Below, one piece after another: positions 1-19,987 of a DNA stretch of 21,177 nucleotides. The stretch covers positions 1-21,177 of IMG/VR virus record IMGVR_UViG_3300044630_006926. One strand, 5' to 3'. The position numbers and the translations under genes were made by a program. The DNA comes from a virus. Position 1 is the first letter of the stretch; each line of letters opens with the position of its first letter. The notes beneath the pieces are model-generated. The model searched no databases. It saw nothing but the letters and a program-made list of their open reading frames with translations, and was not told the origin of the DNA.

Positions 1-1565
1 AAGCGGGGGTCTTCTGGTAAGTCTTCGTATGCTACAACAAGATTGTGATAAATTTCTGCCAATACATCGCCGTACTGCTCGTCGAATTGATCTTCTCCGA
101 TTAGATTCTTAAGTTTTTGTGCGGCGTCTTCAGCTCTGAAACGAACAAGATCGCCGACTGATATCATTTCGTTTTCGTCTCTGTATTCAACTTCAAAAAT
201 TAAATTAGCGACTTCGGCATCTGTCCTATCAAGAAAATATTGTTCGTCTTCTTCGCTATAGCCATAACGGTCATAGTAAGAGTCTACGAGTGATACATTT
301 TTTGGAAATTCTTTTCTTATTTCTTCAAGGTACCTTGCTCGCCGCTTAGCTGCTGGCTCTACATATAGGCTGATACCGTCTTCTCGACCGCTACGTCCTG
401 TTGAGTCAAGACCAAGACCGTCAACTGTGTCTGCATCAAGCGCATTGCCTTCAATGTCTGTGTAAATTGAACGAAGATAGTCCCAGCGGACGTCATCACG
501 TGTCAAGGCTGGTGCTGGTGGCTCGCCGATGCGCTCGTCGTACAGCTCTGGATCTCGGTTTTTAATGTACTCGGCAAACTTTTCACGCAGACGATCTGAG
601 TTTTCAGAATAAAGTTCTGCAAAGAAATCTCTTCTTGCATCGTCTACTCTAGCCCTGTCATCTTCGTTTCTTATATCGTCGTCAATTCCATTGTCGTCTA
701 AGTACTCTCTAAAGTTTTGTTCAGAGGTATCAACGCTATCTTCTAAAAACCTTTCAAGATTGAAAAGGTCATCATCTTTTACAAATTCAGAAAACAGCTC
801 ATCAATGTTACTATCGCGAGATGGGCCGCCTGTTGGTGCTTCGGCAACCTGTGGCTTCCTTGGGAAGCTTTCGCTGAAGTAGTCCTTTGGCTTTTCAAAT
901 TCGTCTCTAGCTTCCAGACCACGGGAGATCGTTTCTCCCATTTCGAGAACCTTTTCGTAATCGTCCTGGTCGGCAAGTGCTGCTTTTTGCATGTCGGCCC
1001 AGGAGTCGCCACGGCCTACTTCTTCGCCAATTGAGTTGTCACTGAGATCTGCACGGTGAAGTGTAAAAGTGTCGCCGTCTTTTTTAACAAAGTATCCGTC
1101 TTCTGAAGTCCAGATTTCTGGCTCGCCTTCAGGAGTTACCTGCTTTGTCCAGCCTGTAGGCTGCTCCATTCGCTTAAGATCTGCTGCGTTAATGGCAAGA
1201 CGCTCGGACGCGCGAACGTCGGCATCTGGGAGATCCTTTAGAGCGTCCCTGGGAAGAATGGCAGCTACAGAATCGCCTTTACTTGATGGCAGCGCGTAAA
1301 TACCGTCTGGAATACGGTCATCACCTTTTACTTCAATTTCAACATCTTCAGTACCAGACGCACCTACAACACGGCCAGACAGCTTGCGAACTCCATCCGG
1401 GAAGCGGATATTGAACATAAATCCGCCGCCCTGAAAGGCAAATTGGCCTTTGCGGTCACGACGTTGAAGTTTCGCGCGCATTGATCGCGCGGCCTTCGAG
1501 TTACCACCGAGGCCAAAGCCTAACGCAGCAATAATTGGGTCGAAATCGTTGTTTTCTTCGTTCAC
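1..1565 (-). CDS. Large head-region protein, paralogue A (3' end outside window)
   Basis: Open on the minus strand from a GTG at 1565 to the window edge, about 521 codons, with no stop. I do not recognise a named family. The first ATG (1481) begins MRAKLQRRDRKGQF, but the frame stays open upstream to GTG 1565, adding about 28 residues including DFDPII and GNSKAARS; a TAA lies nine codons further up. Residues after MRAK align closely with the next gene: RDRxGxFA, GGGF, GRVVG, DGIY, QPxGWT, GEPxxW, SSED/TSED, then RGxSWADxQKA. The two are therefore tandem paralogues over about 170 N-terminal residues, after which they diverge. The later part is acidic, rich in D, E and R, and probably helical. 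Its position downstream of portal suggests a head or internal virion protein (inference). Start choice is uncertain because no strong ribosome binding site precedes the GTG. Confidence 0.8.
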   Translation of the reverse strand, partial: MNEENNDFDPIIAALGFGLGGNSKAARSMRAKLQRRDRKGQFAFQGGGFMFNIRFPDGVRKLSGRVVGASGTEDVEIEVKGDDRIPDGIYALPSSKGDSVAAILPRDALKDLPDADVRASERLAINAADLKRMEQPTGWTKQVTPEGEPEIWTSEDGYFVKKDGDTFTLHRADLSDNSIGEEVGRGDSWADMQKAALADQDDYEKVLEMGETISRGLEARDEFEKPKDYFSESFPRKPQVAEAPTGGPSRDSNIDELFSEFVKDDDLFNLERFLEDSVDTSEQNFREYLDDNGIDDDIRNEDDRARVDDARRDFFAELYSENSDRLREKFAEYIKNRDPELYDERIGEPPAPALTRDDVRWDYLRSIYTDIEGNALDADTVDGLGLDSTGRSGREDGISLYVEPAAKRRARYLEEIRKEFPKNVSLVDSYYDRYGYSEEDEQYFLDRTDAEVANLIFEVEYRDENEMISVGDLVRFRAEDAAQKLKNLIGEDQFDEQYGDVLAEIYHNLVVAYEDLPEDPR

Positions 1566-1675: not shown

Positions 1676-3634
1676 CTATGTAACAGATTGCCGTACTTGA
1701 GAGGCTCTAGAATCTTGGCTTTCTGCGCTGTATAGCGAGTGGTCACGACCGACAGCTAGTCTCATAATTTGATTTCTGCTTGAATTGGAAAGAAAATCTG
1801 GTGTAAAAAACTGTTCAATATTTTGAGACACCTGCGAATCTTGGTCTCCAGCTCTGTCAAGACGAGACGGATTTGTTCCCATGTGAATTTGATTTGTTAT
1901 CCCTAGATCGACTGAAATTTTTTGCAATAAAGCGTTGAATGCCGACTTGCGTGCGTCGGTATTACTAATTTCCATAATCCCTTTTTCAAAAATAATTGGC
2001 TCTATTCCATCTTCCCGTGCGCCGTAGGAGCCGGTTTTTGAAAGCTCGCGAATCGCTTCCGAAACTTGCTCTCTTGCAGAGACAATATCTGCAACATTAC
2101 TTACTGTTTTGTATGATCCGGCAGGGAACTTTAGTACTCCGCCAGCTTCCGGCGTAAAAAACGTATCTTCTGCAAGAATGTTATCAATTGAGCCTGGATT
2201 TGCTTCTAATAAGGCGCGAAGTGGAATAATAGCTATGTGACTGTTAGGGGGCCAGCCTCGCTCTTTAATAGGGTCAACAACGTGATTGAGAGCTGCATGA
2301 ATTGTGTGACGAGGTACAAATATTTCTCTACCGTCTTCAAGAGTTGTTGGGTACGCAGATGCTGGCTTAAGTGCAATATTGCCTTCATCGTCAATAGGAA
2401 ACGCATACTCAGTTTGATGAACCACATACAAATCATCAATAGAGCCATCTAAAATACGTTCTGCTGCCTTTTGATCTTCTTCTGACACTAAACCTTTGGC
2501 TATTCGCTCCCTAAGATTGGTTTCACTTTGCGGTTTAATGTCCCTGAGTGCGGCCTGTCTTTCACTTCGTATTTTTTCTACTTTTTGTTTACCAATTTCA
2601 GCCAGTTCTTCTAGTCGCGCCGAAGACGCTTCGTCTCCGCGAGCACCAGCGTATAAAAGCGCGTCAACTTCACTTGTAGATTTATAGCCCGTGCCGTCAT
2701 TACTGCTTAATGCTGATCTAGCGTACGCCCACTTAAGCGCGAGCTCTCTTCCTTCTTCACTGTCCATTTCTATGCCTGCGATTTTGTACGGATTGATAGG
2801 CACTATTTCTACATCGTCCATGTCTTCGCCGTACTTTACTACGTTGCGATCTTTTTCCATTCCAAAGTGAATTTTTTTACCGCCAATATTCCATACTTGC
2901 CCAATAGCAGCATTGACCGGATTTTCCAGTTCTGCTTTAGCTTTTTCTAAATCGTAATCACTAGTTACAAAACTCATGGAAGCTTCTTTTTCAAGACTTA
3001 CTGAATTATTTGGAAGTTTGTCTGTACTCTGAGCTGTTTCAGGGGCTGGTGAAAAAGGTTTGTCAATTTTTTCTTGTTTGCTGCTCGGCGCTGGCATTGA
3101 CGTTACATTGCCTTTTTCATAGTCAGCAGTTGCTTTTTGAATGTCCGCCCATGACTCTCCGCGCGCGATTTCATTTACGGGATTGCCTGCGCTATCGGAA
3201 TCGTACGCTACGTACGTATCAGCAAATTGGCGAACAATGAGTCCGTCTTCAGAAGACCATTCATTAGGTTCTCCAGGAGCGGTTTCTTTTGGAGTCCAGC
3301 CGCTAGGCTGCGCAGCTACTTTAAGACTGTTAATGTCAATTGCGTCTTCTTCTGTAATAGTTTGCTTAAGATTTTCTGTTTTTACATTAGTACCTTCAAT
3401 GTTAAGAACAGCTTTTACAGCCGTGCCTTTTCCTGAAGGTGCAGAGTAAATACCGTCTGGCACTCCTTTAACGCCGCGCATTTCAACTTCAATTAAGTCT
3501 TCGCCTGACTGGCCTACAACTCGTCCGGCGGCTGGACCGCTACTACCAGAAGAAAATTTAAAGTTGAAAGAAAAGCCTCCGCCCATTTCTGCAAAGCGAC
3601 CGAATCTATCTCGTCGCTGCATACGAGCGCGCAT
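1676..3634 (-). CDS. Large head-region protein, paralogue B; probably expressed as a -1 frameshift fusion
   Basis: 652 residues from ATG 3634. The N-terminal ~170 residues match paralogue A (RRDRFGRFA at 7-15, GRVVG 37-41, QPSGWT 109-114, SWADIQKA 161-168). Residues 185-215 are a low-complexity linker, and 320-400 look helical. A compact domain follows at about 401-510: LYVVHQTEY, a GNIALKP turn, PRHTIHAALNHVV, HIAIIPL, then a GGVLKFP strand. The HQT and later TIHAALNH elements faintly recall ADP-ribosyltransferase-fold proteins, but I cannot assign a function. No good ribosome binding site lies 5-12 bases before ATG 3634. The frame is open upstream for 24 more codons, and its last residues (SRAEKS) match paralogue A (SKAARS). 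Translation by -1 frameshifting from the 182-residue gene is therefore likely, giving an 857-residue product. Confidence 0.85.
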   Translation of the reverse strand: MRARMQRRDRFGRFAEMGGGFSFNFKFSSGSSGPAAGRVVGQSGEDLIEVEMRGVKGVPDGIYSAPSGKGTAVKAVLNIEGTNVKTENLKQTITEEDAIDINSLKVAAQPSGWTPKETAPGEPNEWSSEDGLIVRQFADTYVAYDSDSAGNPVNEIARGESWADIQKATADYEKGNVTSMPAPSSKQEKIDKPFSPAPETAQSTDKLPNNSVSLEKEASMSFVTSDYDLEKAKAELENPVNAAIGQVWNIGGKKIHFGMEKDRNVVKYGEDMDDVEIVPINPYKIAGIEMDSEEGRELALKWAYARSALSSNDGTGYKSTSEVDALLYAGARGDEASSARLEELAEIGKQKVEKIRSERQAALRDIKPQSETNLRERIAKGLVSEEDQKAAERILDGSIDDLYVVHQTEYAFPIDDEGNIALKPASAYPTTLEDGREIFVPRHTIHAALNHVVDPIKERGWPPNSHIAIIPLRALLEANPGSIDNILAEDTFFTPEAGGVLKFPAGSYKTVSNVADIVSAREQVSEAIRELSKTGSYGAREDGIEPIIFEKGIMEISNTDARKSAFNALLQKISVDLGITNQIHMGTNPSRLDRAGDQDSQVSQNIEQFFTPDFLSNSSRNQIMRLAVGRDHSLYSAESQDSRASQVRQSVT

Positions 3635-3682
3635 TGATTTTTCTGCGCGGCTATCCCCTGATGCTATAGTTGGTCGGAGGCT

Positions 3683-3712
3683 GCGGCCCGTACGAGCCGC
3701 TACTCTTTTGGG
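3683..3712 (-). other. Programmed -1 ribosomal frameshift signal (slippery site plus hairpin)
   Basis: On the minus strand CCCAAAA (3712-3706) lies in the phase C CCA AAA relative to the 182-residue gene, the canonical X XXY YYZ slippery arrangement. After a 5-base spacer (GAGTA, containing the first two bases of the zero-frame stop) comes GCGGCTC-GTAC-GGGCCGC (3700-3683), a 7-bp stem with one G.U pair and a tetraloop. After the shift, reading continues AGA GTA GCG into the 652-codon frame without a stop. All three required parts are visible in the sequence; only expression is unproven. Confidence 0.8.
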
Positions 3713-4248
3713 TAGTTATCGTTTTCGTATTGAATTGGGTCAATAGACGCTGTCAAAGGTACAATGCTTGGGCCAAGTGCAGACAGGCGAGCAAACGCAT
3801 GTGCGCGCTCAGTTGATCCTGGATTTGCAGCATGAGCACGAATAACAAGTTCGCGTGCTGATAAATCAACTAAAGGATCAGCAGCAATCCACTGCGCTTG
3901 TGCATGGCGCAATGCAGATGCTGTCATTGCATGCGGGCGAGTGGAGTTAGGGTGGCCGACAGGTAAAAGATCTGCATTACTCAGAGACATCGTTGATTCT
4001 TTATTGCGAGACGCTAATGACATAAAAGCAGACACTGCTTTAACTGCAGAAAAGATGCGGGCGCTAGGTTCGCTATTTCGTGTTTTACGCAGGTCACGGT
4101 TTGCTACTTCAATTGCGGTAGCAAACGGTACGCGACGTTCTGCCTGTAGGTACAAGTTTGACCGCTCAAGTAAAGCAAGAATTTCAGAACGAAGCTGTTG
4201 AGTATGCTGCTTTGTAAACGTTTTTCTTGTGTTTTTCTTTTTCATCAT
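3700..4248 (-). CDS. 182-residue head-region protein; zero-frame product upstream of the frameshift
   Basis: Starts with two adjacent ATGs (4248, 4245), 6 bases after the stop of the preceding gene and without a strong ribosome binding site, so it is probably translationally coupled. The N-terminus is very basic (MMKKKNTRK), then helical. Residues 92-111 carry ADLLPVGHPNST and MTASAL, the same two motifs found in the same order in the 349-residue neighbour. A further Ala/Arg-rich helical segment follows. The family is not recognised; its place after portal and Dps suggests a capsid-morphogenesis or internal protein (inference). The last codons contain the slippery heptamer, so this protein may be made both alone and as the N-terminal part of an 857-residue fusion. 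That resembles the G/GT logic of tail chaperones, but the setting here is a head region. Confidence 0.85.
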   Translation of the reverse strand: MMKKKNTRKTFTKQHTQQLRSEILALLERSNLYLQAERRVPFATAIEVANRDLRKTRNSEPSARIFSAVKAVSAFMSLASRNKESTMSLSNADLLPVGHPNSTRPHAMTASALRHAQAQWIAADPLVDLSARELVIRAHAANPGSTERAHAFARLSALGPSIVPLTASIDPIQYENDNYPKE

Positions 4249-4254
4249 ATTCGT

Positions 4255-5304
4255 CTAGCTTTCTGTTTTGTCAACAAATGTACGAGGAAGAAGATCAGTA
4301 TCTTTGTCGTTTTTATAGAGATTTATTGCAAGAGATTTTGCGCGCTCAAAAGGATCTTCTCGATCGTTTACGCCACGCATCCAAGCAGCACGGAAAGCTG
4401 GAACTGTTTCATAGCCAAGTCCGCTGTATTCTGCAAAGGCTACGATCGCGTGCTCAGGTGATTGATACTCGTCTTCGTTTTTCAGCGCGATGATTAGTTC
4501 ATTCTCAGCTAAGGCAGAAGCGGTCATTGACTCTACTGAGTTTGTTGACTTTGGATGTGCTTTTGGAAGAAGATCATTGTCTTGCTTGTAGTTTGGATTT
4601 GTTGGTCGTCCGGACCTAAGAAGCTTGAGGTACGCATTAACTCGAGCCATTGCCCATTGATCACGAGTTTTGCCGGGACGGTGCGAGCTTGAGTACGCGC
4701 CAGCGCCGCGACGATACACGGCTTTTAACTGACCTAAAGTTGCTTTACGACCAGCCGGTGCTTTTTCATTATGCTCTTTAACTTTATTTTTGAGCGCTGT
4801 TTCTACTTTTTTTGAAAAGACAATCTTTTTTCCACCAGCGGCAGAGCCTGGCTTGTTTTTCTTTGAGCCGTAGATGCGATCTTTTTTCGGAGCTCTACGA
4901 GAAGCCGCGGCAGCAACTGCATCTGGTTGGCGCTGAACTTCTTCTTGAGCTTCAATAGGCTTTGCAGCTTCTTCTTTTCTTTTTACTTCGACTGCAGAAG
5001 TAACAATACCGTCAGGGATTAAAGCAAAACGGCAATAACCTTCTGGTTCAACTTCATCATAAATAATTTTGCAAATAGTTCCGCCTGCGTAGAGAATGCA
5101 GTTTTCGCACTTAACTCCGATATCTTTATTTTCATTTTGTTCGGGTGGTTCGTAGCCAACCCAAACGCCGGTGTCGTCATCGTTAAACTTGCCGTACTTT
5201 TTTGCAATAGCAACTAAGGCATCAGCAAGCTCTTGTTCTTCAGGAACAATGGCAGAAGCAAGTATGCTTTCTACTTCTCTTTGTGCTCGCGTTTTCTTTA
5301 ACAT
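4255..5304 (-). CDS. 349-residue protein: four-cysteine cluster plus DUF5824-like domain
   Basis: Three parts are visible. Residues 60-100 hold four cysteines, C66-x2-C69-x8-C78-x12-C91, ending YCRFALIPDG; the pattern resembles small Fe-S (HiPIP-like) or zinc sites. Residues 100-160 are a low-complexity charged linker. Residues about 163-232 (FSKKVETALKNKVKEHN, LGQLKAVYRRGAGAYS, HRPGKTRDQWAMARVNAYL) recall the phage domain annotated as DUF5824, named here from memory. The C-terminal ~105 residues carry DNDLLPKAHPKST, MTASAL and a terminal TDLLPRTF. The first two are shared with the downstream 182-residue gene. The start ATG is 27 bases after the dps stop. Its role in the virion or head assembly is inferred from position. 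Confidence 0.85.
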   Translation of the reverse strand: MLKKTRAQREVESILASAIVPEEQELADALVAIAKKYGKFNDDDTGVWVGYEPPEQNENKDIGVKCENCILYAGGTICKIIYDEVEPEGYCRFALIPDGIVTSAVEVKRKEEAAKPIEAQEEVQRQPDAVAAAASRRAPKKDRIYGSKKNKPGSAAGGKKIVFSKKVETALKNKVKEHNEKAPAGRKATLGQLKAVYRRGAGAYSSSHRPGKTRDQWAMARVNAYLKLLRSGRPTNPNYKQDNDLLPKAHPKSTNSVESMTASALAENELIIALKNEDEYQSPEHAIVAFAEYSGLGYETVPAFRAAWMRGVNDREDPFERAKSLAINLYKNDKDTDLLPRTFVDKTES

Positions 5305-5331
5305 AATGACTGCCTAAATCCTAGTTACTAA

Positions 5332-5829
5332 TTAATGAAACATTGAATCAACAGGGGTGAGATGTGCGCGAAGCATCCATGCCCACTTTTGATGCATGTC
5401 AATTCGCCCTGCAATGAAATCAGCGATACCTTGCTGATTTGCCGCATCGGCTGCTGCAAAACTTTCTTTAAGGCAATCAAGCATTATTTCGTTTGCAGCA
5501 AAAAGATCATGGCACATGCTCATTGGGTTACAACCGCATTCCATGTCTTCAATACTTGTCAACGCGGCAAACTCTGCCAAACGGTACGGAGCAAGAGCAC
5601 CGAGCTTGCGAAGATTTTCTGCAAGTGGGTCAATTGATCCATACACATCGCTGTAAATTTCGCCAAAGAACTCGTGGTATTGCGTAAAGTCTGGGCCCAT
5701 AACATTCCAGTGATGTCCTTGAGCTTTAAAAGCAAGAACTACTGCGTTACCAAGACACTCTGCAAGTGATTCAGCAACAGCTGGGTCACCAACGCCGTAC
5801 CCAATTGGGTTCATTTCTTCTTTATACAT
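5332..5829 (-). CDS. dps: Dps-family ferritin-like protein
   Basis: 165 residues, the usual Dps length. Dps proteins form 12-subunit cages that oxidise ferrous iron with peroxide at inter-subunit ferroxidase sites and protect DNA. The signature is clear: HHWNVMGPDF at 39-48, YHEFF at 51-55 and IDPLAENLRKLGA at 66-78. Ferroxidase ligands H40, H52, D67 and E71 are present with canonical spacing (H, +12, +27, +31). The ligand expected at +16 (Asp or Glu) is Gly56, with Glu57 adjacent, so the site may be altered. Cysteines at 98, 100 and 106 are unusual for the family. The N-terminal tail is short and not basic, so DNA binding through a Lys/Arg tail is unlikely. The ribosome binding site is AAGGA before ATG. 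It sits 9 bases after the portal stop, presumably co-transcribed with head genes. Confidence 0.93.
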   Translation of the reverse strand: MYKEEMNPIGYGVGDPAVAESLAECLGNAVVLAFKAQGHHWNVMGPDFTQYHEFFGEIYSDVYGSIDPLAENLRKLGALAPYRLAEFAALTSIEDMECGCNPMSMCHDLFAANEIMLDCLKESFAAADAANQQGIADFIAGRIDMHQKWAWMLRAHLTPVDSMFH

Positions 5830-5838
5830 AAGTTATCC

Positions 5839-7602
5839 TTATTGTTCGGTCGGCGCTGGTGGCGCTGTTTCTTCTGTTGCTGGCTCAAGCAATCCAGTTG
5901 GCGCAGGAGCAGGTTCTGATTCTCCAGCAGGTTGCGCCATTGGTGGCATACCAGGTTGGCCACCTTGAAGCATTTGCTGAAGTTCTGGAGGCATTGGCGC
6001 TACGCTATTTGCCTGTTGTGCATTTCTTGTAGATGCCATAAGATCGGGAGCAATTGCACCAATGACTGCTTCTGTGAGTTCAGGAGTAATTGCGCCTTTT
6101 TCAATAATCATACGAAGTGCAACTTCTTCTGGGCTTGGTGCATCGGCTTCGCTAAATCCGTGCATTCTTCGCCAAGTGTCAAAGCTAACTGCCATCTTTC
6201 CAAAGCCAGACTCGGCGTCTGCAGCTCTGTCGTTGCGAGTAGCAACTGCAGATGGGTCGTACCAAATAACAATACGATCAACTTCAGCCTCGGGGAAACC
6301 GTTTGCAATAAGATACGGACGCAAGTACACAATTGTAAGCGCGTCTGCAATAAGCAGCATTAACGGTTCAATGTGCGACTTGTACAGTGACTCGTCAATT
6401 TGCATTGCATTGCTGTATTTGACATTTGCAAGTCCGGTAACGATATCTTTTGGAACATCCAAACCTTGCAAAATTCTTTCAAGCACACGATCCGAACGAG
6501 CAGCAAGTGCTGGGTCAAATGAACGCTCAAATTTGAACTGCTTAATTTTGTCGCCAAGTTCAGCAGGTCCGCGAATAATCAAAGGAACAACCGCACTGGC
6601 TGAGTCCTCATCACGAATTGGAGTTGTCATCGCGTCGATGAGCTGATCCTCGAACTCGTCTGCAGCTTCCTCTGGTGTAAACCCGGGATCAAGATCTGTT
6701 TCATCATCGTACGGGTAGTTCGGATCTGGAGATGCCGCAACGCTAAGACCGTCGGGCAGATAGAGCGCGCCAGCGTTCAGACGGGAACGCGCCGTTGCAC
6801 GGAACGTGCGGTTTAGCAAAAGAAGTTCTGCGCAAAGATCTAAAAGACCGCGCAGTGACGAATCCGCTTCGTCAGAAAATCTTGGGTGAGCACGCCAGAT
6901 ACGCCCAACGAAAGCGTTTTCTGGCAAAGGAATAATTCCTTTATTAACTTTGCTACTGCTTGACGACCCTGCATTTTGTCCGGGCAGATAATCTCTTCGA
7001 GCAACAATGCCGTACTTATTTTTGCTGTCGATTTGAACTTCGTCTACAGAGCGAATATCCCATGATTCTGGAATGCCAGAGCCAATACGGGCTGGCATCT
7101 GCACTAGATAGCACTCACCTGTCACTGAAAGGTTCAGAGCGGCATCTCGTAATAGACCAGCCTGACCGCCATAAGCAGAATCAAGACGTGATAGAGCCCT
7201 TTCTGCGGCCGCCCCAAGCCGTGCGTCAATATTGCTTGCATTACGGACTGAAACTGGGGTTTCAGCCGGGTTATCAATAACTGCTGCATACAAGCGAATA
7301 CGGGAAACTACAGAAGCAACGAGGTTAAATGCATACTTAACTTCGCCAATCGCGTCGTAGTACTCCCAGGCTTCTCCCTGCCATGCAGAGGAAGTTGACT
7401 GTCTACGATTCTTAAAATACTCAGCTTCGCCCTTGTCGTTCATGCGAACCTGAGCTGCCGCCGCGGTCAAAGCACGAGGAGCAGAAAATGGCGCTGATTC
7501 CGCAAATGTGAATCCAGCAGGCGGAACCTGCTGTACAACACGCGACGGCGGTGTAGCCGTTCTCCGTGTCGGTGGTACTTGTTCTCGGCGGAATACGCCC
7601 AC
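5839..7602 (-). CDS. Phage portal protein
   Basis: 587 residues from GTG 7602, preceded by AGGAG eight bases upstream. The portal forms the dodecameric ring at one capsid vertex through which the terminase packages DNA. Recognition rests on the actinophage-style segment EAWEYYDAIGEVKYAFNL (about 75-92) followed by VSRIRLYAA, the GECYLVQMP and IWRAHPRFSDEADSSLRG stretches, the clip/stem-like middle ending VPKDIVTGLANVKYSNAMQI, and IADALTIVYLRPYL in the wing region. The last ~70 residues are Pro/Ala/Met-rich and probably disordered. The length is in the normal range. It is followed directly by dps, with the terminase 5 kb upstream on the same strand. Confidence 0.92.
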   Translation of the reverse strand: MGVFRREQVPPTRRTATPPSRVVQQVPPAGFTFAESAPFSAPRALTAAAAQVRMNDKGEAEYFKNRRQSTSSAWQGEAWEYYDAIGEVKYAFNLVASVVSRIRLYAAVIDNPAETPVSVRNASNIDARLGAAAERALSRLDSAYGGQAGLLRDAALNLSVTGECYLVQMPARIGSGIPESWDIRSVDEVQIDSKNKYGIVARRDYLPGQNAGSSSSSKVNKGIIPLPENAFVGRIWRAHPRFSDEADSSLRGLLDLCAELLLLNRTFRATARSRLNAGALYLPDGLSVAASPDPNYPYDDETDLDPGFTPEEAADEFEDQLIDAMTTPIRDEDSASAVVPLIIRGPAELGDKIKQFKFERSFDPALAARSDRVLERILQGLDVPKDIVTGLANVKYSNAMQIDESLYKSHIEPLMLLIADALTIVYLRPYLIANGFPEAEVDRIVIWYDPSAVATRNDRAADAESGFGKMAVSFDTWRRMHGFSEADAPSPEEVALRMIIEKGAITPELTEAVIGAIAPDLMASTRNAQQANSVAPMPPELQQMLQGGQPGMPPMAQPAGESEPAPAPTGLLEPATEETAPPAPTEQ

Positions 7603-8945: not shown

Positions 8946-11385
<2,440 letters not shown>

Positions 11386-12365: not shown

Positions 12366-12833
12366 CTAGTCGATGACTACCGTAACGTTGTGGTCACCCG
12401 CAAACAGCTCTTGGAACGTGTCGGCATCAATAAGGCCGTCACCTTCAAGACCATTGTCAGCCTGGAACTGAGATACAGCCAGCTTGGTCATATCGCCATA
12501 CCAGCCATCCTTGTCAGCGTCGGCTACCTTGTACCCAAGCTCAACGAGACGACGTTGTACATGGTGTACAGTCAGTGACTTGCGTGCAAATGAGTTCTTG
12601 TAAATACACTTGCTCAATAACACCGCGTCAGTCAACTCACCGCTGACCACCGCGTTGGTTGCTGCAGGCACATGAGTCTTTGGCTCTGCCTCTGTAGCCT
12701 TTGCAGTTTCTGAGGCGTCTACCTTTTCTTCTTCTGGCTTTACTGTTTGCTCTTTGAGAGGTTTTGGTTTTTCAACATCTGCCAAAACTTCTTCAGCTTC
12801 AGTTGTTGATTCCTGGGAGTTGTTATTGTCCAT
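12366..12833 (-). CDS. Peptidoglycan-binding-domain protein
   Basis: 155 residues. Residues 1-60 are acidic, Glu/Ala/Lys/Pro-rich and probably disordered. Residues about 84-145 form a PG_binding_1-like domain: SLTVHHVQRRLVELGY, DGWYGDMTKLAVSQFQ, DGLIDADTFQELF. This fold binds peptidoglycan in lysins and cell-wall proteins. There is no catalytic domain, so it is not a complete endolysin. It may be a virion or lysis accessory protein. It lies 18 bases downstream of the terminase stop, but has its own TATAAT 7 bases before ATG, which suggests a leaderless transcript. A terminator follows. Confidence 0.85.
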   Translation of the reverse strand: MDNNNSQESTTEAEEVLADVEKPKPLKEQTVKPEEEKVDASETAKATEAEPKTHVPAATNAVVSGELTDAVLLSKCIYKNSFARKSLTVHHVQRRLVELGYKVADADKDGWYGDMTKLAVSQFQADNGLEGDGLIDADTFQELFAGDHNVTVVID

Positions 12834-19092: not shown

Positions 19093-19368
19093 CTATTTCG
19101 CAATGCGAAGATTCACTTTTTGCGCTCGACGTGCTTTTCTTCTTTCATTTGCAGTCATGCCGCCCCAAACTCCGTACTCGTCGTGCTTCATTGCATGAGA
19201 CAAACACTGCTGTCTTACGCTACAGCCGGCACACACTTGCTTTGCTTCGCGAACAACAGTCAGTTTATGATCGCTGAAGAATAGTTCTTGCTTTCCTGAG
19301 CAAGCCGCATACTCTCTCCACGTGAGATCCGCGAGGGAGACTGTTCTGTGCGTATTTTCTTTTGTCAT
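19093..19368 (-). CDS. whiB: WhiB-family [4Fe-4S] transcription regulator
   Basis: 91 residues from ATG 19368; the longer frame would overlap the previous gene. WhiB-like proteins are specific to actinobacteria and their phages; they carry a [4Fe-4S] cluster and act by binding region 4 of the principal sigma factor. The four cysteines are C23 (YAACSGKQ), C46, C49 and C55 (CAGCSVRQQC), followed by GVWGG at 66-70 and a basic C-terminal tail (RRKARRAQK). All hallmark elements are intact. It follows the proteasome-like gene by 22 bases, so both are probably made together. A mycobacteriophage WhiB (TM4) represses a host whiB gene; a similar role is possible here. Confidence 0.93.
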   Translation of the reverse strand: MTKENTHRTVSLADLTWREYAACSGKQELFFSDHKLTVVREAKQVCAGCSVRQQCLSHAMKHDEYGVWGGMTANERRKARRAQKVNLRIAK

Positions 19369-19390
19369 TTCGTCTTTCTTTCTGCTGAGT

Positions 19391-19987
19391 TTATTTTGTA
19401 ATTGGCTGCGATTGATGCATGATGTGGAACGGTGACCCAGATCCCACATCGAGCTTTGCCGCAATTGTTAGCGATTCACGAATAACTTTCTTAGTAGTTT
19501 CTACCCCTGACTCCGCAAGACTGTCTCCAGTCATTGCGTACATCGCGCCCAGTGCGTAGTCTCCGCCGGAGCCGAACGAGTAGATGCCTGTTGTGTCCCG
19601 CACCCAAGCGTAGTCTTCGTCTATTTCATAGATCTGACCGTTCACGATTGCAAGAACTACTGAGCCGTGTTGCGCTTGTTCCTTCGATTCTCTCGAAGCG
19701 TAGCCATGCTCTTCGAAGCACGAACGTAAAGCCGGTACAAATTTGCTAGTAATGAATCGATCAAGTCGAACTCCTGTTAAGTCCATCGCCTTTGGCGGTT
19801 GAAATGAGTATGCAAGAATGTTGATTGCGCGAACATCGCCGGCAGCACCGAGAAGATACTGACCGTTTTTGACGACCTTCGACGAACCGCGACCGAGCGT
19901 GTACGATCGCCCACCTTCTTCTGTTACGCGAGAATCAAATCCTACGACTGCCCATGACGGGCCTTGAACAGCGATGATTGTAGTCAC
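19391..19987 (-). CDS. Proteasome beta/HslV-type Ntn hydrolase
   Basis: 198 residues from GTG 19987. The start MTTIIAV gives an N-terminal threonine after Met removal, as in HslV, with no propeptide. The catalytic set is recognisable in mature numbering: Thr1, Asp17 (GFDSRVT), a lysine near 36 (SSKVVK), the GSGGDYALGA motif (139-148 unprocessed) and a D-x-x-S pair (D180, S183) matching Asp166/Ser169 of proteasomes. The fold is therefore probably an active threonine peptidase that assembles into rings. No ATPase partner is encoded nearby, so it may use host unfoldases or act alone. It is next to whiB. A TGG-TACCAT box 7 bases before the GTG might give a leaderless transcript. Confidence 0.88.
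   Translation of the reverse strand: MTTIIAVQGPSWAVVGFDSRVTEEGGRSYTLGRGSSKVVKNGQYLLGAAGDVRAINILAYSFQPPKAMDLTGVRLDRFITSKFVPALRSCFEEHGYASRESKEQAQHGSVVLAIVNGQIYEIDEDYAWVRDTTGIYSFGSGGDYALGAMYAMTGDSLAESGVETTKKVIRESLTIAAKLDVGSGSPFHIMHQSQPITK

Follow-up and report, generated by a model that had tools for sequence, protein, structure and literature searches.

Gene arrangement

The window, meaning the whole stretch of DNA that was analysed, corresponds to a virus record 21,177 bases long. The features treated below all lie on its minus strand.

5839-7602, minus: portal protein (phrog_776, E 1e-102), which places the cassette described here in the head module
4255-5304, minus: 349-aa protein with DUF5824 and a second HPxS-like region; its homologue in contig L008 bears a second cassette
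3700-4248, minus: 182-aa upstream protein with a helical 'HPxS' domain (DLLPxxHPxS...MTASAL...AHAFARL), ending at the stop codon TAG 3702-3700
3712-3706, minus: slippery heptamer C_CCA_AAA (CCCAAAA), in phase with the 182-aa frame
3701-3705, minus: spacer GAGTA of 5 nt, a length also found in L001 and L008
3683-3700, minus: putative stimulatory hairpin GCGGCUC-GUAC-GGGCCGC, 7 bp with a tetraloop; the stem is kept in L001
3635-3706, minus: 24-codon link in the -1 frame, RVAARTGRSLRPTIASGDSRAEKS, without stop or indel relative to L001
3404-3652, minus: RDRxGRF ('RGRF') domain, N-terminal in the large protein and made up of a helix plus a small beta domain (boundaries approximate)
1676-3634, minus: 652-codon downstream ORF, whose ATG at 3634 lacks a Shine-Dalgarno sequence and is TTG in L001
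3-1565, minus: second RGRF protein, with a GTG start, continuing past the window edge

Several other genes of the window, again on the minus strand, can be described. A Ferritin/Dps-like protein (5332-5829; Pfam Ferritin, E 1e-17) comes directly after the portal gene and is present in L001 and L008 as well. Between terminase and portal lies a 694-aa collagen-repeat protein (8946-11030), and a peptidoglycan-binding protein (12366-12833) is encoded directly downstream of the terminase large subunit, an order shared with phage DSL-LC01. At 19093-19464 and 19391-19987 are a WhiB-like regulator (Pfam E 6e-19) and its neighbour; the start of the neighbouring protein, MTTIIAVQGPSWAVVGFDSR, looks proteasome-beta/Ntn-hydrolase-like by eye, and the protein has no Pfam match.

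The frameshift site

Read on the minus strand, the 182-aa ORF closes with AAC TAC CCA AAA GAG TAG, so that GAG is the single codon between the heptamer and the stop. The hairpin stem takes in the G of the TAG, has one U-G among its 7 bp and, folded in isolation, has an energy of -12.0 kcal/mol. From AGA (3706) to TCA (3635) the -1 frame has 24 open codons, after which comes the ATG at 3634; a slip would therefore yield a fusion of 181+24+652 = 857 residues. A sequence-only reading of the window had proposed a programmed -1 frameshift here, and its account of the site was accurate throughout: heptamer phase, stop, spacer, hairpin, link length, downstream ORF and fusion length all hold.

Conservation in a close relative

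The only close relative is L001, a single viral contig with protein identities of 82-91%; its large protein matches that of the window at 89% in the best segment and at 82% across the 200 residues following the slip, and the 182-aa genes share 85% nucleotide identity. L001 has the same heptamer, GAG TAG, spacer and stem, with GCAA in the loop where the window has GUAC. The link is open there with no indels, and TTG stands at the position of the window ATG. Stops in the link or a missing slippery site in relatives had been named beforehand as evidence against programmed frameshifting, and L001 keeps both the site and the open link.

Link substitutions between the window and L001 give dN 0.13 and dS 0.46 (dN/dS about 0.29, from two sequences only), and 7 of the 14 changes are at third positions, an excess that is not significant alone. 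This two-sequence pattern would support a coding link in a supplementary way. A 30-nt identical run covers the site; a longer one exists elsewhere in the pair.

The downstream ORF of L001 has 1,591 codons (2614-7389), with an extra DUF3626 region. The RGRF protein of the window (1676-3634, minus) is without some 900 internal residues of its L001 counterpart, DUF3626 included, while both ends of the two proteins match at 74-89%, which amounts to domain turnover between close relatives.

In-frame fusions in other relatives

The 182-aa family was found at 16 loci in viral contigs, with further members from later scans; a scan of genome contigs with the family gave no relatives. Identity of the 182-aa protein to its homologues is 49-91%. 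Outside the lineage of the window and L001, the 182-type domain runs stop-free into RDRxGRF wherever the sequence extends far enough. We counted 90 distinct RGRF sites and 124 occurrences of in-frame HPxS-RGRF fusions, which reduce to 46 clusters when grouped at 90% identity. Actinomycetia phage DSL-LC01 (OQ999401) has both domains in one CDS of 3,289 aa, located between the portal gene and the capsid maturation protease and major capsid genes. More distant relatives are without the slippery site because they encode both domains in one frame. Since the domains are already joined in most relatives, the frameshift looks like a real, evolved switch. By sequence comparison the frameshift arrangement appears to be derived, with one-polypeptide fusion the state in most relatives.

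A tree of RGRF domains (81 rows, 87 columns) is weakly resolved. The frameshift rows fall within an 11-row clade (97/86) alongside stand-alone and 349-fused forms; the L008 row pairs with a stand-alone copy from L010 (99/89) and is not sister to the window and L001, and the starred branches require that the frameshift label changed at least twice. The second RGRF protein of the window (3-1565) groups with the giant proteins of L008 and L010 that bear the 182-type domain in frame, at a fork of mixed support (95/54). The simplest history would have an accessory RGRF gene moving in behind the 182-aa domain and displacing the ancestral partner, which now has its own GTG. The cassette may have moved with the RGRF gene or arisen twice.

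A second cassette at another gene

A second -1 cassette lies at the end of the DUF5824/349-type gene at 3641-3680 of L008 (3562-3601 of L009). L008 and L009 are separate assemblies, L009 coming from another sample, and are identical in sequence; in terms of sampling, the cassette of the window and L001 is known from two contigs, and that of L008 and L009 is one sequence seen twice. Here the 349-type gene ends GAT CTT CTC CCA AAA TAG, then CA, and the hairpin ACGGCCU-UAGC-GGGCCGU repeats the 5-nt spacer, 7-bp stem and tetraloop, with A-U as the basal pair of the stem where the window has G-C. The -1 frame is a 679-codon RGRF ORF, and none of the 38 open codons ahead of its RGRF motif is ATG, GTG or TTG; ordinary initiation therefore cannot make the conserved domain. 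Gene callers would truncate or miss a large ORF of this kind in L008-like genomes.

L010, L063 and L090 have an in-frame fusion at the equivalent junction, from 349-type gene to RGRF. L008 alone uses the spelling CTC CCA AAA among 37 distinct loci that code for Leu-Pro-Lys at the junction. The 349-aa and 182-aa proteins have a DLLPxxHPxS...TASA region in common (read off alignments), so the modules ahead of the two slippery sites are partly related. That this geometry occurs a second time, leading into an ORF without a start, makes chance or simple initiation unlikely.

Features canonical for -1 frameshifting are present: an in-phase X_XXY_YYZ heptamer in the window, L001 and L008; in the same three, a structure within the usual 5-9 nt or so downstream (5-nt spacer, 7-bp stem, tetraloop); a coding-like -1 frame that runs open as far as the downstream ORF, backed by in-frame fusion counterparts; and retention across relatives though alternatives exist (1 of 37 Leu-Pro-Lys loci; two placements).

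Chance and folding controls

As a control we took 41,798 in-phase codon positions from long ORFs of related phages. Any X_XXY_YYZ heptamer occurred at 60 of these, CCCAAAA at 3, and a GC-rich hairpin of at least 7 bp at a spacer of 4-9 nt at 99; heptamer and hairpin together occurred at none. A 73-nt fold at the site is no more stable than its shuffles (z +0.44), but the 30-nt local folds are more stable, with z -2.0 for the window, -2.4 for L001 and -1.8 for L008. Searching 2.9 million contigs for the cassette returned five matches, including the contigs of L001, L008 and L009; the remaining two (L243 and L244) are not on RGRF genes. An Rfam scan of the site gave no match.

Domain structure

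Neither the HPxS nor the RGRF domain is named by any profile in Pfam or PHROGs, and the 652-codon ORF of the window has no significant profile match of its own. AlphaFold2 was run on a natural fusion, L008 6004-6897 (47 rows, one annotated-phage row left out). The model has a helical domain at about residues 2-166 (pLDDT about 95), a low-confidence linker at 173-186, a helix at 188-197 and a small beta domain at 212-265. In this model the predicted frameshift link corresponds to the low-pLDDT linker between the domains plus the helix. Foldseek returned no significant match for the model; the small beta domain is weakly SH3-like.

The link residues ahead of the window ATG (SRAEKS) had earlier been matched to those ahead of the first ATG of the paralogue (SKAARS). 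That match is real, and belongs to a family-wide helix with the consensus SSAARSARAxLQRRDR, in which a nearly invariant Ser is upstream of ATG 3634. The ATG falls inside the predicted helix, past a Ser that at least 90% of rows share.

Alternative explanations

The end of the 182-aa gene in this freshwater phage is very probably a programmed -1 ribosomal frameshift site, as judged from sequence. Support at that level covers its geometry, its conservation, the fusion counterparts and the absence of a start in L008; L001, the fused relatives and the second cassette all bear out the reading first put forward. The principal alternative, which we regard as improbable, is that there are two separate genes, the 652-codon ORF having its own start at ATG 3634 (TTG in L001) or at ATG 3622, whether leaderless-like or through coupled re-initiation 63 nt past the stop, with heptamer and hairpin incidental. 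A start codon is indeed present in both the window and L001, and some RGRF proteins stand alone. Those, however, begin 21-34 residues before RRDR, and a protein started at ATG 3634 would begin only 6 before it; the equivalent ORF of L008 has no start ahead of the domain at all. The link is moreover open and ungapped with protein-level conservation above that expected of a spacer, in-frame fusions are the rule, and the coincidence of heptamer and hairpin was absent from all 41,798 control positions. The lack of a ribosome binding site at ATG 3634, noted in the sequence-only reading, is correct as an observation, with no anti-Shine-Dalgarno pairing 5′ of it (+0.2 kcal/mol; background median -1.7). 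It carries no information here, since several other genes of the window, including the 182-aa gene and terminase, also lack a Shine-Dalgarno sequence, which equally leaves room for two genes. ATG 3634 or the second ATG at 3622 could initiate a shortened protein in the window lineage.

Decay or assembly error, in which a one-base indel broke an in-frame fusion and nothing is programmed, is very unlikely. Fusion in frame is the common state from which such a break would start, but the arrangement is common to the window and L001, whose 182-aa genes are 85% identical in nucleotides, and recurs, at another gene, in the separate assemblies L008 and L009; the heptamer is the same at both breaks, as is the 5-nt/7-bp/4-nt geometry, and the downstream frames are open for about 650-1,600 codons. 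Least probable of all is that the hairpin acts as a transcription terminator or attenuator and keeps expression of the two ORFs apart: its GC-rich stem right after a stop codon would suit this, yet no U-run follows it on the coding strand, a scan scored it as terminator-like on the opposite strand only, and in both lineages the stem includes the stop-codon G and sits 5 nt behind the heptamer. Of two other routes to a joined product, readthrough of the TAG was rejected, as it would meet another stop in the 0 frame ahead of the RGRF domain, and transcriptional slippage is unlikely, the run of A being only four.

Proposed mechanism and role

Under programmed frameshifting, ribosomes on UAC CCA AAA GAG UAG would meet the hairpin 5 nt ahead. 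The majority would terminate at the UAG and release the 182-aa protein; in a minority, tRNA-Pro and tRNA-Lys would slip to CCC AAA, presumably by simultaneous P- and A-site slippage stimulated by the hairpin. The slipped ribosomes would read the 24 link codons, the RGRF domain and the rest of the ORF into a fusion of 857 aa (about 1,800 aa in L001). The slippery cassette would in this way convert an obligatory fusion into a ratio of short to long product.

The sequence-only reading took the joined genes to be two head-region genes. They lie in the head module, near the portal gene; the frameshift partner itself is no classical head protein and forms the N-terminal part of a large protein, probably a polyvalent one. 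RGRF proteins of relatives have profile matches to kinase-like domains (L010), RNase_T and WYL (L020, L041, L011) and DUF3626 (L001, DSL-LC01), that of L008 has a HEXXH motif, and in Arthrobacter phage Atuin an RGRF gene annotated as DNA helicase comes directly after the portal gene. Microbacterium phage Big4 likewise has its RGRF gene beside that of the portal. They are thus like polyvalent proteins in being multidomain, in having effector-like matches (in relatives) and in being encoded beside virion genes (DSL-LC01). In L010, a stand-alone RGRF protein (2080-5418) has a PI3K/HipA/CotH-like kinase match and, after it, a stretch with homology to that part of the predicted L008 frameshift product in which HEXXH lies.

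With no profile for either domain and no significant Foldseek match, it is position that suggests the helical HPxS domain as a portal-proximal, head-associated anchor; the RGRF part would bear the variable effector-like domains. The ratio of short to long product may set the amount of large protein entering the particle, functionally like Gag/Gag-Pol or MuF-toxin fusions. Portal-adjacent polyvalent proteins have been proposed to be packaged and injected (PMC5512222), and since position and mixed domains match this idea, we favour the frameshift as a dosing device for a virion-carried protein, a hypothesis, with inclusion in the virion and injection both conjectural, to which we give close to an even chance. 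Should the long product be packaged, the dose of effector per virion would depend on how efficient the frameshift is. A broader proposal, put forward tentatively and with rather less than even odds, is of a mobile cassette (heptamer, 5-nt spacer and 7-bp hairpin) behind two different portal-proximal anchor genes of actinophages that doses a virion-carried, injected polyvalent protein as a DNA-phage counterpart of Gag/Gag-Pol, most relatives having the obligatory fusion in its place.

Comparison with known systems

Frameshifting by -1 in the tail assembly chaperones G/GT is widespread, in lambda and most siphophages. There too a short and a long product arise by a -1 slip from adjacent phage structural genes, but G/GT sits before the tape measure gene, whereas the RGRF fusion involves other proteins and lies between the portal gene and the capsid protease and major capsid genes (DSL-LC01). 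No tail chaperone profile matched, and with the locus in the head module we do not place it among the tail chaperones.

Parallels are also found among head genes. Lactobacillus phage A2 also uses CCCAAAA. In gene 10A/10B of T7 and T3 and in the A2 head gene a -1 slip near the end of a head-region gene likewise lengthens some of the product at its C-terminus; there the major capsid protein comes first and gains a short or Ig-like extension, whereas in the window and L001 the first product is a small portal-proximal protein, which would be extended by about 650-1,600 residues with an uncharacterised lead domain. The novelty initially suggested for a head-region case is reduced by these examples of T7/T3 gene 10 and A2 (PMC5009743), and holds for the proteins concerned, for which we found no open-access paper.

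MuF-toxin fusions have been discussed for SPP1 gp7 (PMC6316719) and for MuF-VIP2 fusions of Microbacterium phages (PMC7302621). Like the RGRF system, MuF-toxin and polyvalent proteins are portal-adjacent, have diverse effector-like domains and are proposed to be packaged and injected; in the RGRF system a different and unnamed helical domain is the putative anchor, and predicted frameshifting makes the fusion. No MuF profile in Pfam or PHROGs matched the 182-aa or RGRF parts, which we therefore do not class as MuF. The PRFect study counts MuF-like/VIP2 genes with its 'false positive' frameshift predictions and reasons that, where some genomes have a fusion, others may frameshift (PMC10885494); the argument made here from fusions is the same, with much more data and for a different family. 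In the open-access literature we found no published description of an HPxS-RGRF frameshift case, and the use of frameshifting to attach portal-proximal giant or polyvalent proteins was only hinted at in what we found.

In Gag-Pol frameshifting a structural domain is made in excess and a minority carries a C-terminal enzyme module (PMC5009743). The retroviral and totiviral systems would work alike by analogy, without homology; the present case is a DNA phage. It would take programmed frameshifting in phages beyond tail chaperones and major capsid proteins, to giant proteins encoded near the portal, and points to evolutionary interchange between two ways of joining the HPxS and RGRF domains, by a frameshift and by a gene that encodes them fused.
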